From Gammaproteobacteria bacterium (GTDB taxonomy: Bacteria > Pseudomonadota > Gammaproteobacteria > Steroidobacterales > Steroidobacteraceae), in NCBI GenBank assembly GCA_947469285.1, contig CANIOW010000009.1:1-64000 (forward strand): 64,000 nt of DNA, in the 5' to 3' direction. The notes beneath the pieces are model-generated. The model saw only the letters and a program-made list of their open reading frames with translations, was not told the DNA's origin and searched no databases. Made by a program: the position numbers and the translations under genes. Below are positions 1 through 4,476 of the stretch, piece by piece. Positions within the stretch are counted from its first letter, which is position 1; the number at the start of each line of letters is the position of its first letter.

Positions 1-128
1 GCTTGGGTACGTACCTGCTGTACGCCGAGCAGCAAGGCAACGCTCACGGCGATGGCGAACACCGTCAGCGCGGCAGTGCCGCGGCGGTTCCACAGGCTGC
101 TAGCGGCCAGGCGTGCCAGTGCGTTCAT
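1..128 (-). CDS. ABC transporter permease, FtsX/MacB type (N-terminal part only)
   Basis: This is the first 42 codons of a membrane protein that runs off the left edge. The N-terminus has a short basic segment (residues 1-16, ending in WNRR) and one hydrophobic helix (about 18-38), the usual start of FtsX-like ABC permeases. It lies directly downstream of the ABC ATPase gene, so the two should form one transporter. The ATG at 126-128 was chosen because an earlier ATG at 140-142 reads only five codons before a TGA. That arrangement comes from a 14-bp tandem duplication. Substrate is unknown; the Zur-type operator upstream suggests metal handling (inference). Confidence 0.75.
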   Translation of the reverse strand, partial: MNALARLAASSLWNRRGTAALTVFAIAVSVALLLGVQQVRTQ

Positions 129-887: not shown

Positions 888-3002
888 TTAGAACTGCACC
901 CGGACGCCGACGGTCAGTCCTCGTGCCGGCAACGGGACGTACTCCTTGAGCACGGAGGTGTGACGCCGCAGGTCGCGGTTGAGCAAATTGTTGACGCGCA
1001 GGAAGATGGTGGTGTCCAGACCCCCCCACGTGCCACCCCAGTTGAGATCACCATTCGTCGCCAGTGCCGCCCGTGTGGTTGGTTCGTAGGCAGCCACGCG
1101 GTCCTGTCGTTGGCTCCATTGCAGCTCAAGGTGCGCAGACCACGGGCCGCGCTGATGCTGCAACGCCGCGGTGAGTCGCAGCGGTGGCATCAGCGGCAGG
1201 TCGTTGCCGTGCTTGAGTCGGCCGCGGACCAGGTCACCCGCAAGGCGTAGTTCATAGCCGCTACGCTGGCTGTTGTCGCGGTGGTGCGTCGTGTCGTGGG
1301 CGTTGCCATGGGCGTTGCCGTGGTTGGCGAAGGGCAAAATCCATTCCACTTCCAGGCCGGTAAATAAGGCATCGCCTTGGCGGTAGCGAAATACTCCCAG
1401 TCCGTCGGTCACCAGTTGGGTGGGTTCTAAGTAGAGGTAGTCGTGAAAGTCTTGCGCGAAGACGCCGGCGGACCATCGAGCGGTGTCAGTGTTGCCGCCA
1501 CGCAGCGTTAAATCTAGCGTGTTAGCGGTTTCCTTGCCGAGACTCGCATTGCCTATTTCGAAATGCCCGACGGCGACATGTGGCCCATACGCAAAGAGCT
1601 CAGTCGCTCCTGGCAAACGCTGCGAACGAGTGACCTGCAGCGCTCCATTGAGGGTGTCGCTGACGACCCAGACCATGCCGGCGGCCAGGCCCAGTGAGGT
1701 GCCGCTGCGCGTGGCCGTGGGGACGCTGATGCGTTGTTGCTCCACACGCGCACCGAACTCCAGCGTGCCCGGCGTGATGGGGAGTTCTTCGAAGATGAAG
1801 AGCGCGGCATTCTGCGTAGTGGATGGTGGTACGAAGGCCTCGGTGCCTGCCGCCAGCAGCTCCGCCTGCCGCCATTGCAAGCCTAAGGTGCCCCGCAACG
1901 TACCGAGGGTGTGGTCCGCCATGAGGCGCAGGTCCTGCGCCGTATTATCGAAACGCGTGCCCATCGCACCATCCGCTTCCAGTTCTGCATGTCGGTAGCG
2001 GTTCCAGGCGCCGCGTAGGCGCCACGCCGTGACGTGGCTGTCGAGTGGGCGATATTCGCCCCGCAGGTCTAAGCGGGTCTGTGCCATATCAATGGCCGGG
2101 CCATTTTCCACCAGCCACTCGGTGGCGCCCATGATCGGCTCTGCCGCAGGCCCGGGAATGCCATAGAGCGACTCATAGCGGCTGAGCGCCACGCCGAGGA
2201 AACCCTGATCGCCGATCCAAGAAACGCCCATCGCGCCGCCACGCGAGGCGCTTGCGCTGTTGGGCAGTCGGCCGCGGGTGGCATCCTGGAGGCCTGCACT
2301 CGCCAGCGTTGCGCGCAATGCCGGCGTTAGCGCTTCCCCGGGAATGCGCAGGTTGCCGGTGTGGCGCTGAAAGCCGTCAAAGTGAAACGCGAACGGCCCA
2401 GCACCAGCGTCTGCTCTGGCGGCCACTGAACGTTCCGCCAGTGCCGTGTCCCCGCGGATTTCGGCGGCGCCACTGAAATCTTCGGTCCGTTCACTGGGAA
2501 TGCGATGCGTCACCACGTTGACCAGGCCACCCACCGCACCATTGCCATACAACAGCGTGGCGGGCCCTTTTAGAATCTCGATCTGGTCTGCCGCCAACCC
2601 ATCGATGCTGACGGCGTGGTCGGCTGACAAGGCGGAGGCATCGAGTGCGTCGGCGCCGTCTTCCAGCATCAGCACGCGCTCGCCCGATTGTCCACGGATG
2701 ATCGGCCGACTGGCGGCGGCCCCGAAGTAGGAGCCGGTGACACCGAGACTGGAAGCGACCGTTTCGCCGAGGCTGGCCCCCATCATCCGCTGGAGCGCTT
2801 CACCGGCGAGTACGGTCACCGGTTGCGCCACATCCAACGGTGATTCGCGCAGTGCGGAGGCCGTGACGATCACCTCGTCGGCATCGTGTTCGGAGCGTGA
2901 ATCTAGGTCAGCTGGTGCGCTGCTGACCGGCGCTGACCAGAGACAGACGGCGAGTAACGCAGGTGCGCTGATACCGGTGGTAATCAATGTTGTACGGGAC
3001 AT
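888..3002 (-). CDS. TonB-dependent outer-membrane receptor, ZnuD-like (predicted zinc or metal uptake)
   Basis: A 704-residue outer-membrane receptor: signal peptide (about 1-30), a TonB-box-like VIVTAS segment near 45, a plug domain with RGQSGERV and the LKGPATLLYG...GGLVNVV plug signature, then a 22-strand-type barrel ending in aromatic VQF. A loop near 1265-1330 is rich in histidine (NHGNAHGNAHDTTHH), as in zinc-scavenging ZnuD receptors. The ATG at 3000-3002 has GAGG seven bases upstream; a GTG at 3012-3014 would add four residues. It follows the small secreted protein gene and precedes the ABC genes. Control by Zur is inferred from the operator at 3351-3365. Heme or another metal remains possible. 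Confidence 0.88.
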   Translation of the reverse strand: MSRTTLITTGISAPALLAVCLWSAPVSSAPADLDSRSEHDADEVIVTASALRESPLDVAQPVTVLAGEALQRMMGASLGETVASSLGVTGSYFGAAASRPIIRGQSGERVLMLEDGADALDASALSADHAVSIDGLAADQIEILKGPATLLYGNGAVGGLVNVVTHRIPSERTEDFSGAAEIRGDTALAERSVAARADAGAGPFAFHFDGFQRHTGNLRIPGEALTPALRATLASAGLQDATRGRLPNSASASRGGAMGVSWIGDQGFLGVALSRYESLYGIPGPAAEPIMGATEWLVENGPAIDMAQTRLDLRGEYRPLDSHVTAWRLRGAWNRYRHAELEADGAMGTRFDNTAQDLRLMADHTLGTLRGTLGLQWRQAELLAAGTEAFVPPSTTQNAALFIFEELPITPGTLEFGARVEQQRISVPTATRSGTSLGLAAGMVWVVSDTLNGALQVTRSQRLPGATELFAYGPHVAVGHFEIGNASLGKETANTLDLTLRGGNTDTARWSAGVFAQDFHDYLYLEPTQLVTDGLGVFRYRQGDALFTGLEVEWILPFANHGNAHGNAHDTTHHRDNSQRSGYELRLAGDLVRGRLKHGNDLPLMPPLRLTAALQHQRGPWSAHLELQWSQRQDRVAAYEPTTRAALATNGDLNWGGTWGGLDTTIFLRVNNLLNRDLRRHTSVLKEYVPLPARGLTVGVRVQF

Positions 3003-3031
3003 GGGCGGCCTCACAGACGAAATACCAGAGA

Positions 3032-3049
3032 GCGACCCCGGGGGGTCGC
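3032..3049 (-). other. Strong intercistronic hairpin before the receptor gene
   Basis: GCGACCCC and GGGGTCGC form an 8-bp perfect stem with a 2-nt nominal loop, placed between the end of the small secreted protein gene (3062) and the receptor start (3002). No T-run follows on the minus strand, so it does not look like an intrinsic terminator. It may shield the downstream message or adjust the expression ratio of the two genes (inference). Confidence 0.5.
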
Positions 3050-3061
3050 ACAGGGTGAGCG

Positions 3062-3349
3062 TCAGGCGTGAGGCGGTGCGCGGGAGGCGTAGGGTGCGCG
3101 TGTAGCGACAAGTGGCGCGGCGGCTGCGACCGGTCCCAAAAAGTCATTGAACGGCGCGGGTAAGAACAGCACCGGTCCGTGCATGGGCGGTGGTGCTCCC
3201 CGTTCGATGCCAGCACAGAGCTCGCAGACGGCATGTGCTGCATGGCTGGAGCTGGTCGCCACCGGGTGCACGTGCACCGCCGATAGCCACAGCCAGCTGA
3301 GCAAGGCCAAAGCCAGCAGTGCAGTCCAGCGGGGAGAGGCAGATCGCAT
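3062..3349 (-). CDS. Small secreted His/Cys-rich protein, DUF2946-like
   Basis: A 95-residue protein with a signal-peptide-like N-terminus (basic SPRW, then a Leu/Ala helix to about residue 24), followed by potential metal ligands HVHP, HAAH and CELC. This composition resembles the DUF2946 group of small proteins found near metal-regulated TonB receptors; the family match is from memory and not certain. It is the first gene of the predicted zinc operon, 59 bp before the receptor. The start codon lies one base from a Zur-like operator that contains a TATCAT hexamer, and there is no Shine-Dalgarno, so the mRNA may be leaderless. Confidence 0.6.
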   Translation of the reverse strand: MRSASPRWTALLALALLSWLWLSAVHVHPVATSSSHAAHAVCELCAGIERGAPPPMHGPVLFLPAPFNDFLGPVAAAAPLVATRAPYASRAPPHA

Positions 3350-3350
3350 A

Positions 3351-3365
3351 TGTTACATGATAACA
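3351..3365 (-). promoter_or_regulatory. Zur-like operator overlapping the -10 of the metal-uptake operon
   Basis: TGTTACATGATAACA is an inverted repeat with arms TGTTA/TAACA and matches 13 of 15 positions of the enterobacterial Zur core TGTTATAwTATAACA. Read on the minus strand it contains TATCAT (5/6 to TATAAT) at -13 to -8 from the start codon of the small secreted protein. Zur binding would therefore cover the promoter. It sits in the 62-bp gap shared with holA, so an effect on holA is possible but unsupported. Confidence 0.65.
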
Positions 3366-3411
3366 CAGATGCCGCATCCCACCGAGCGCCGGTCAATGGC
3401 ACACTGTGCGT

Positions 3412-4476
3412 ATGCGCTTGCTCCCTGATGCTCTGACCCGTGACCTGCAGCGGTCCCTCGGGCACGCTTATCTCGTCGCCGGCGCCGAACCGCTGTTGGT
3501 GGAAGAAGCCACCGATGCCATCCGTGCTGCCGCCCGCGCGCAGGGTTTTACCGGCCGCGATGTGTTTGTGGTCGACCGCGGCTTCGAATGGGGCGCTATC
3601 CTGCAAGAAACGCAGGCCATGTCCCTGTTTGCCGACCGCCGCATTCTTGAAATCCGTTTGCCGACGCCGAAGCCCGGAGTGGAGGGTGGTCGCGTGCTGG
3701 CGCAACTGGCAGCGGAGCCCATCCCCGATTTTCTTATCTTGGTGATCACCTCCGGCCTCGACTGGGCGGAACGCAAGACCAGTTGGGTCAAGGCTTTCGA
3801 GGACCGCGCGGTGTTCGTCGACATCGAGCCCGTGCCGACGGAAAAGCTGCCAGCGTGGATCACGCAGCGGTTGTCACGTCACGGGTTACAGCCGGAAGAC
3901 GGGGCGGCGGAACTCCTCGCTGAGCGCTGTGAAGGCAACCTGGTGTCCGCTCATCAGGAGATCGGGCGACTGGCGCTGGTGCTGGGAGGCGAGCCGCAAA
4001 CGCCGCGTGCGCTGTCGGTGGATGCGGTGGCAGATTCGGTGGCGCGCAGCGCCCGTTTCAGTTTGCTGCAACTGGGTGAGGCTGCGCTCGCGGGCGATGC
4101 GCCCCGCGCACTGCGAATTCTGGAGGGTTTACGCAGCGAGGGTGAAGAGCCCACGCTGGTGCTGTGGACGCTGGCTGAAGAAATACGGGCCGTGCTGCAG
4201 TTCAACCCGAACGCGGACCGCGGCGCACCGATGCGTACTTGGCGTGGCGGCCCGCGCCGCCAGCGGGCACTGGCTCAGGCGGCAAAGCGTCTCGGCCGTG
4301 AACGCGCACGTCTCTACCAGATGCTGCAGTTCGCCGGCCATGCAGACCTGCTGGTGAAAGGCGTGCGCCCGGGCGATGCTTGGGGCGCCTTTGCGCGCCT
4401 GGCGGCGGCGCTGGCCGGCGCACCGGTGCCATTGTCGCTGCCGACCAGTCTGGTGCGAGGCGGCAGTGCGGCCTGA
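3412..4476 (+). CDS. holA: DNA polymerase III subunit delta
   Basis: The 354-residue delta subunit of the clamp loader opens the beta sliding clamp. The N-terminus matches the family pattern (LQRSLGHAYLVAGAEPLLVEEA near residues 12-33), and the length is close to the E. coli 343. The ATG at 3412 was preferred to the in-frame GTG at 3406 by family length; neither has a clear Shine-Dalgarno. In many gammaproteobacteria lptE and leuS lie just upstream; here the neighbour is the divergent metal operon, so this junction is a rearrangement point. The end overlaps nadD by 11 bp. Confidence 0.93.
   Translation: MRLLPDALTRDLQRSLGHAYLVAGAEPLLVEEATDAIRAAARAQGFTGRDVFVVDRGFEWGAILQETQAMSLFADRRILEIRLPTPKPGVEGGRVLAQLAAEPIPDFLILVITSGLDWAERKTSWVKAFEDRAVFVDIEPVPTEKLPAWITQRLSRHGLQPEDGAAELLAERCEGNLVSAHQEIGRLALVLGGEPQTPRALSVDAVADSVARSARFSLLQLGEAALAGDAPRALRILEGLRSEGEEPTLVLWTLAEEIRAVLQFNPNADRGAPMRTWRGGPRRQRALAQAAKRLGRERARLYQMLQFAGHADLLVKGVRPGDAWGAFARLAAALAGAPVPLSLPTSLVRGGSAA

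Follow-up and report, generated by a model that had tools for sequence, protein, structure and literature searches.

At the beginning of the window, the whole 64,000-nucleotide stretch of DNA that was analysed, a group of genes is carried on the minus strand in the order small protein, TonB-dependent receptor, ABC-type ATPase and the start of an FtsX/MacB-type permease, with holA lying divergently upstream (Table 1). The permease is cut at window position 1 because the contig begins there. The first 149 bases of a second contig of the genome, C39, are identical to the reverse complement of the window start, and C39 holds the rest of the permease, a DUF3299 gene, a COG0523-type (cobW-domain) GTPase in reverse orientation and zur, a FUR-family gene; by this exact overlap, zur comes to lie at the opposite end of the locus. 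The congener G001 has the whole series in the same order on a single contig, and the adjacency of contigs C9 and C39 is well supported, if not proven. Of the 41 receptor loci described below, 25 have the cassette in divergent orientation beside holA, a gene usually preceded by lptE. In G023 and G041, LptE- and LeuS-like ORFs (recognized by eye) occur beyond the cassette, an arrangement that looks like an insertion of the cassette between lptE and holA.

Table 1. Features at the start of the window, listed in minus-strand order (predicted elements are marked as such; uORF, upstream open reading frame)
Feature	Coordinates	Strand	Description
Zur operator (predicted)	3351..3365	-	TGTTA-N5-TAACA; supported by consensus match, position and relatives
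CruR-type uORF, 95 aa	3062..3349	-	Export signal (by eye), H26-x-H28, C42-x-x-C45, 44 residues, R90-A-P-P93, two residues, stop
RAPP arrest-motif codons	3071..3082	-	Motif function as described in PMC9426467 and PMC12992588
Anti-Shine-Dalgarno CCUCAC (codons P93-H94)	3068..3073	-	Predicted pairing with GUGAGG at 3014-3009
GC-rich hairpin GCGACCC-CCCG-GGGUCGC (predicted)	3032..3049	-	In the 59-nt spacer, inside the stem predicted to hide the Shine-Dalgarno sequence
Receptor Shine-Dalgarno GUGAGG	3009..3014	-	Predicted pairing with CCUCAC at 3073-3068
ZnuD-like TonB-dependent receptor, 704 aa	888..3002	-	Ligands D128, H129, E340, H475; His-rich stretch HGNAHGNAHDTTHH
ABC ATPase, 235 aa	139..846	-	Best NCBIfam matches DevA, LolD and FtsE, all below cut-offs
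FtsX/MacB_PCD permease start	1..128	-	Cut by the contig end; 412-aa gene continues on C39

The 15 bp ahead of the small gene, TGTTACATGATAACA, form a perfect inverted repeat in a 5-5-5 arrangement with 5-bp arms. Scored against TGTTATANTATAACA, the gammaproteobacterial Zur consensus, the repeat matches 12 of the 14 specified bases and differs at two, confirming the near-consensus Zur 15-mer picked out by an earlier, sequence-only reading of this DNA. It also agrees with the skeleton RNNNYxxxRNNNY of the E. coli Zur dimer (PMC4219657), and the putative zrg site of V. parahaemolyticus is reported to contain TGTTATATTATAACA (PMC9817125). A search of the window for TGTTAYATRATAACA with up to three mismatches returned only 3351-3365, yet 54 of 100 shuffles had a match too, so this search says little about chance. 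Over both strands of the 3.1-Mb genome, the Zur consensus with at most two mismatches occurs at one place, the same site, and a reversed control pattern at none; when the 600 bp upstream of the receptor were shuffled in two-base blocks, none of 500 shuffles reached two mismatches. In many relatives, the reversed control scores equal to or above the Zur consensus at the two-mismatch threshold, and because two-mismatch sites in a genome are not rare by themselves, the case for an operator is built on position and comparative evidence. At up to three mismatches, TGTTAYATRATAACA gave 19 strand matches in the genome against 19 for the reversed control, hence no excess of further sites of this kind. 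The scan with the Zur consensus at up to two mismatches counted one site in the congener G002.

The repeat lies where a repressor would be expected. It is separated by one base from the first start codon (ATG at 3349-3347, minus strand) and by 46 bp from holA, and the palindrome overlaps TGTTATCAT, which has the form of an extended -10 element (TGnTATCAT) when read on the minus strand, such that bound Zur, covering the -10 region, would block the promoter. Transcription is predicted to start at or beside the ATG, i.e., leaderless, and a sigma-70 scan of 2950-3550 found no -35/-10 pair. At the equivalent place, two congeners have TGTTATGTTGTAACT, in which the arms are kept except for the last base and the centre differs.

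The sequence-only reading had made its operator depend on a zur gene, and one was found, on C39. The nearest solved proteins to its product are 7dh7 (1e-30) and E. coli Zur 4mtd (2e-24), and all eight zinc ligands named in PMC4219657 are present in an alignment read by eye. The genome has three FUR-family members, Fur-like (C27) and Irr/PerR-like (C7), both named by eye, and Zur (C39). Fur or another member of the family was considered as the binder of 3351-3365 and rejected, given that the site does not look like a Fur box (by eye) and that its co-occurrence is with Zur. An Irr/PerR-like protein of the genome (L002, 1345-1866) has no CxxC pairs (by eye), and its gene precedes a fumarase-like ORF. 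In this genus, the 67-bp gap between zur and the COG0523 gene is without a box that would indicate Zur autoregulation; boxes are found in this gap in some more distant relatives (L062, L071, L072, L074, and L086). Among 148 genomes searched (E up to 1e-10), Zur was found in 32, here termed Zur+, the remainder being termed Zur- on the strength of this one search at 1e-10 and with receptor-genome assemblies that are 74-100% complete. The Zur+ relative G073 has two two-mismatch Zur sites approximately 260 and 400 bp after zur (L154, 18000 and 18134), and despite these its receptor has no box. Family searches of the genome under study found neither ZnuA nor ABC-3 permeases, and with a second site at two or fewer mismatches likewise absent, the comparison with znuABC sites suggested by the sequence-only reading was not possible. 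A ZIP transporter is encoded on the same contig as the operon (84930-85760), so the ABC pair need not be the importer.

The receptor has its best match among solved structures in ZnuD (4rdr, 2e-52; next match 2e-9) and its best NCBIfam match in the ZnuD model, with 26 bits to the copper receptor model and 317 bits to ZnuD, approximately a third of the cut-off of 950, for which reason it is referred to as ZnuD-like and not filed as ZnuD. One zinc site of ZnuD is described with the ligands D90 as printed (D99 by alignment), H100, E340, and H499 (PMC4557270), and these four align with D128, H129, E340, and H475 of the receptor. The ligands are invariant across 45 receptors wherever covered (D128 and H129, 44 of 44; E340 and H475, 45 of 45). 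Compared with ZnuD of Neisseria meningitidis, the best match in both PDB and NCBIfam and a protein with which it shares all four ligands of one crystallographic site, the receptor differs in operon context and is far under the curated ZnuD score. It was found in 41 of the 148 genomes, the genome under study included, and a scan of the genome contigs with the receptor gave four loci. Receptor and ZnuA occur together in eight of the 41 receptor genomes, and ZnuA occurs in 57 of the 148 overall; that the two seldom share a genome fits a replacement of ZnuABC.

The ABC pair was assigned to the MacB/Zrg/PA4064-65 kind by domains and layout. The cassette resembles Vibrio ZrgABCDE and P. aeruginosa PA4063-PA4066, which are Zur-regulated and have an FtsX/MacB-type ABC pair (zrgB and zrgC) and a DUF3299 gene (zrgE), in that the MacB-type ATPase, the permease and the DUF3299 gene of these sets are all present, and some relatives of this genome share ZrgA (DUF2796) as well. 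It differs from them in having a ZnuD-like receptor inside the operon and a uORF as the first gene, and none of the four genomes of the genus yielded ZrgA (PF10986). A ZrgA gene stands between receptor and ATPase in seven Zur+ relatives (G022, G088, G050, G077, G015, G065, and G034) and in the Zur- G026, and Zur is present in 21 of 26 ZrgA genomes versus 32 of 148 overall, in statistics that ignore kinship. The layout shared with the ZrgA-bearing relatives identifies the cassette as a ZrgABCDE/PA4063-66-type set with a built-in ZnuD-like receptor. The receptor ligands, the Zrg/PA4063-66-type ABC and DUF3299 genes, the Zur site and zur together support a role in zinc acquisition, as the sequence-only reading had proposed for the cassette; the transport direction of this kind of ABC pair is disputed, so zinc import by the pair itself is not established.

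The small protein was also counted with zinc acquisition in that reading. Its anatomy points elsewhere. In CruR, a DUF2946 protein of Bordetella pertussis, the ribosome is reported to stall at a C-terminal RAPP until copper binds a CxxC motif, whereupon Rho ends transcription ahead of a TonB receptor gene, and the distance from CxxC to RAPP is given as 45 residues, constant within one or two (PMC9426467). Both RAPP and RGPP are described as supporting arrest, and in a purified system CruR is reported to arrest with the third codon in the P site and the fourth in the A site (PMC12992588). Across 17 homologs of the small protein (its own sequence, one from a congener and fifteen from the loci of relatives), the only invariant columns are the start, the two histidines (H26 and H28), C42, C45, R90, P92, and P93, the histidine pair being HxH in the protein itself and spaced wider in G007. 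Matches to DUF2946 were obtained for 16 of the 17 homologs and were weak (best, 1.8e-4), and the protein itself had no match to Pfam DUF2946 at E of 1 or 2. Falling short of the cut-off, it is described as CruR-like in anatomy and not filed as a DUF2946 member.

For the comparison among relatives, 38 of the 41 receptor loci were counted, G034, G043, and G140 being left out for missing upstream sequence; 13 of the 38 are in Zur+ genomes, and 30 of the 41 came from the receptor search and 11 by coordinates. An upstream ORF counted as a uORF if R(A/G/S)PP occurred among its 16 C-terminal residues, with CxxC not required. Such a uORF was found directly before the receptor in 32 of the 38 loci, and CxxC was present in all 32. 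The spacing from CxxC to RxPP is 44 or 45 residues in 30 of these (44 in the genome under study), 46 in G013 and 47 in G102; RxPP lies 1-6 residues from the C-terminal end, and both RAPP and RGPP occur. HxH is present in 27 of the 32 (exceptions: G007, G103, G146, G138, and G013). The HxH, CxxC and RAPP motifs, their spacing and the Shine-Dalgarno (SD) pairing described below make a regulatory arrest-peptide uORF the more likely identity of the small protein than a part of the acquisition machinery.

Other DUF2946 genes of these genomes were considered as a copper-type control and set aside, as most look like another subclass (by eye). Most of these ORFs (L174-L203) have the pattern PxGFM...C...CxFA...R(A/G)PP, are longer and have a single Cys in the second motif (by eye). 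DUF2946-type ORFs with CxxC placed 40-50 residues from RxPP numbered seven, of which three are linked to a receptor and four are elsewhere (L174, L180, L181, and L186). HxH occurs in one of these four, too few ORFs for HxH to be called a zinc mark.

The RNA between the arrest motif and the receptor start has a predicted structure of its own. In the leader of the genome under study, the last Pro codon of RAPP and the codon after it (CCU-CAC) pair with the receptor SD GUGAGG with a predicted probability of 1.0, a value reached by none of 100 shuffles. Both congeners have the SD UUGAGG and the leader sequence CCCCAA, where A-U replaces one of the C-G pairs and a mismatch takes the place of another pair. 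Pairing was computed for 29 of the 32 uORF loci (G060, G023, and G056, with no start by the rule of the script, were left out); between the SD and the stretch from RxPP to the stop it has a predicted mean of 0.57, exceeding 0.5 in 17 loci and lying at or near zero in six. When leaders were exchanged among the 29 loci, mean pairing was 0.34 (sd, 0.05) and 0 of 5000 permutations reached 0.57, with the cognate leader in the top tenth of exchanged leaders at 14 of the 29 loci. For the genome under study, exchanged leaders already average 0.69, and none equals its own value. The predicted pattern is compatible with a switch that works by ribosome stalling at RxPP, which would leave the SD of the next gene free. 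In all 32 loci, the excess of C over G in the leader between CxxC and the receptor is greater than the mean of the receptor body, as would be expected of a Rho site; proline-rich coding could also cause it.

Among the counted loci, 10 of the 13 in Zur+ genomes have a site with at most four mismatches no more than 600 bp upstream of the receptor, versus one of the 25 Zur- loci (G102). The four-mismatch sites of G077 and G015 were each reached by 11 of 500 shuffles and the other eight by 0 or 1. Extending the count to 1 kb gives 11 of 13, with G093, which has none within 600 bp, added at 988 bp; the Zur+ loci without a box are G073 and G110. The association of box and Zur has a p of 6e-6 by genome and of 0.02 by genus split by Zur state (4/7 versus 1/15). 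This distribution, the zur gene and the ZnuD-like receptor uphold the earlier claim that a Zur operator stands at the head of a zinc-type receptor/ABC operon, and 3351-3365 is supported as a real, well-placed candidate Zur operator.

The uORF has a different distribution, being present before the receptor in 25 of 25 Zur- loci and in seven of 13 Zur+ loci. It is missing from six loci, those of G093 and of five congeneric species in which a Zur box immediately precedes each receptor gene, and if the distant site of G093 is counted, no locus with upstream sequence lacks both box and uORF. The association of uORF and Zur has a p of 6e-4 by genome and 0.09 by genus, and with five of the six uORF-less loci in one genus the independent evidence for it is modest. 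Outside the 38, four more distant receptor loci were found, of which G113 (Zur+) and G144 (Zur-) have a uORF and G124 and G135 (both Zur+) have none, their best boxes having four mismatches in G113, G124, and G135 and six in G144. In the Zur- G013, which has one of the most distant receptors, the uORF heads a set of receptor, outer-membrane protein, ZnuA and ZnuB-like permease (outer-membrane protein and permease by eye). Other Zur- loci in which the uORF heads zinc-type sets are G007 (receptor and DUF3299) and G038, G019, G026, G083, and G027 (receptor and ABC genes); in most of the remaining Zur- loci, no zinc (Zrg/Znu) gene was recognized by eye after the receptor.

Outside the order, 13 receptors were available, on nine plasmids (of 14 records) and in four other genomes. 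A site with at most four mismatches lies within 700 bp of 11 of the 13 by raw count. Only one of the 13, the receptor of Colwellia, is preceded by a uORF, and a perfect Zur consensus is present there too. In this organism, C. piezophila (L055, 5162-5773), the perfect consensus, an ORF with CxxC-43-RAPP and the ZnuD-like receptor gene follow one another, placing both elements in another order of bacteria. A plasmid of Sphingomonas koreensis, typed as conjugative (L208, 3640-6859), has a ZnuD-like receptor, a MerC-domain protein and a gene for a 'transcriptional repressor' side by side.

Taken together, the sequence anatomy, genome content, conservation, co-occurrence and statistics of predicted RNA pairing favor a zinc-acquisition operon under two stacked controls, one exerted on the promoter by Zur and the other in the leader by a peptide that would sense metal while nascent, a reading to which we give a probability of roughly 0.68. 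We infer the binding of Zur, the arrest, its relief by metal, the sign of the response and zinc as the metal (the published CruR senses copper). When zinc is plentiful, Zur-zinc on 3351-3365 would lie over the -10 and stop transcription, and residual transcripts would be shut off in the leader, where the metal-filled nascent peptide would not stall; zinc starvation would release Zur. When metal is scarce, the ribosome would stall at RAPP near the end of the uORF, covering codons otherwise paired with the receptor SD, so that receptor and ABC genes would be made, and it may also keep Rho off the C-rich leader. Metal held in the HxH/CxxC site just outside the ribosome tunnel would relieve the arrest, the stem would re-form and expression would drop. 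The products would be the ZnuD-like outer-membrane zinc receptor, the Zrg/PA4064-65-type ABC pair and the DUF3299 protein. The sign, with metal turning expression off, is taken from CruR rather than from CutF, in which metal turns expression on; the output resembles the stem over the SD in CutF.

Several readings compete with parts of this proposal. It is highly improbable that the palindrome is a mere extended -10 promoter element and no operator. TGTTATCAT does fit TGnTATAAT at five of six hexamer bases, and TATA-like stretches occur shortly before the uORF in several Zur- relatives (by eye), but a -10 element has no need of the downstream arm GTAACA, the congeners preserve arms, bar the last base, around a centre that varies, and two-armed boxes are found in most Zur+ loci and are absent from Zur- loci except for the one in 25. 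A plain Zur-regulated zinc operon without a second control, with the small protein serving as a periplasmic chaperone for zinc or a ZrgD-like accessory, would account for the Zur operator and the zinc genes, a zrgD gene (annotated DUF2607) is reported in the Vibrio zrg operon (PMC9817125), and HxH and CxxC would suit a metal binder. We consider this improbable, as almost nothing is conserved beyond the paired His, CxxC and RxPP, yet the spacing between the last two holds at 44-45 in 30 of 32 loci, RxPP stays within 1-6 residues of the end, the small gene directly precedes the receptor in the 32 uORF loci, and the last uORF codons pair with the next SD better than exchanged leaders do on average.

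The metal and the role of the ABC pair are less readily decided. The uORF may be an ordinary copper-responsive CruR, in which case copper would silence a zinc-type receptor (or be imported by it) and Zur would handle zinc. CxxC binds Cu(I), and the published CruR work, as far as available, concerns copper, but this reading appears unlikely in view of the preference of the receptor for the ZnuD over the copper receptor model (317 versus 26 bits), its invariant zinc ligands, the Zrg or ZnuA type of the downstream genes where recognized, and the mostly different subclass to which the other DUF2946 genes of these genomes belong (by eye); no copper gene was seen among the next ORFs of 23 loci (by eye, first 110 residues). 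Somewhat less doubtful, though still the weaker side of the argument, is the possibility that the ABC pair exports a metallophore and the receptor re-imports it once loaded. The permease has MacB_PCD and FtsX domains, and PMC11481552 assigns PA4063-66 to pyochelin-cobalt export and argues that PA4064-65 is an exporter. Against such a role, V. parahaemolyticus without zrgA is reported to be impaired in growth under zinc deficiency (PMC9817125), and the scarcity of receptor and ZnuA in the same genome is what replacement of ZnuABC would produce.

The proposed two-layer control has likenesses to several described systems. Like CruR of B. pertussis, the small protein is an exported first gene product before a TonB-dependent receptor, with CxxC, a near-C-terminal RAPP and a C-rich leader, and the gap between the motifs is 44 residues here versus 45 in CruR. 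It differs in having HxH before CxxC, a zinc-type receptor and operon, a Zur site at the promoter, a spacer of 59 nt compared to 162 nt, and a predicted stem hiding the receptor SD. CutF of Rhodobacter capsulatus is described as an exported protein that senses metal as a nascent chain and, through its C-terminal motif, opens a stem-loop covering the SD of the following gene, though with CxxxC and with copper turning expression on (PMC9973294), whereas at this locus low metal should do so. In Caulobacter, the DUF2946 gene CC2720 has a listed Zur-type site and adjoins the metal transport genes czr, which makes it a partial precedent; these are efflux genes and among the downregulated ones, and the available part of the source makes no mention of a uORF mechanism (PMC4176598).

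Each of the modules, Zur box, CruR-type uORF, ZnuD-like receptor and Zrg-type genes, is individually known. Neither their combination nor a CruR-type uORF linked to a zinc uptake operon appeared among the literature matches listed. Supplementary tables apart, the word 'zinc' is absent from PMC9426467, PMC9973294, and PMC12992588 and occurs once, in a reference, in PMC12914433; the symbol Zn occurs in PMC9426467 in a remark on riboswitches, where the CruR authors state that a riboswitch for copper or zinc had not been described.

Post-transcriptional control of copper by nascent peptides is itself a recent theme (CruR and CutF), and a CruR-like leader before zinc-type receptors, present in 25 of 25 loci seemingly without Zur, would be a candidate nascent-chain zinc sensor. 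We tentatively suggest, at slightly less than even odds, that zinc-sensing arrest peptides of an H2C2 type (HxH...CxxC) switch on ZnuD-type receptors and zinc ABC genes at low zinc, serving as the zinc regulator of the receptor where Zur is lacking and acting in series with Zur in this genus and two other Zur+ lineages. The published behavior of CruR in Bordetella, which is described as responding to copper and with a spacer that works via Rho (PMC9426467), argues against the two-control proposal with zinc as the metal. The locus, in which neither ZnuA nor ZrgA was found, provides a natural setting for asking if a MacB-like pump of the Zrg/PA4064-65 kind imports zinc. As the peptide gene is present in each examined receptor locus seemingly without the repressor, it may be a stand-in zinc sensor; if true, a leader peptide would take the place of a transcription factor in relatives lacking Zur, so that one layer of regulation substitutes for, or reinforces, another.
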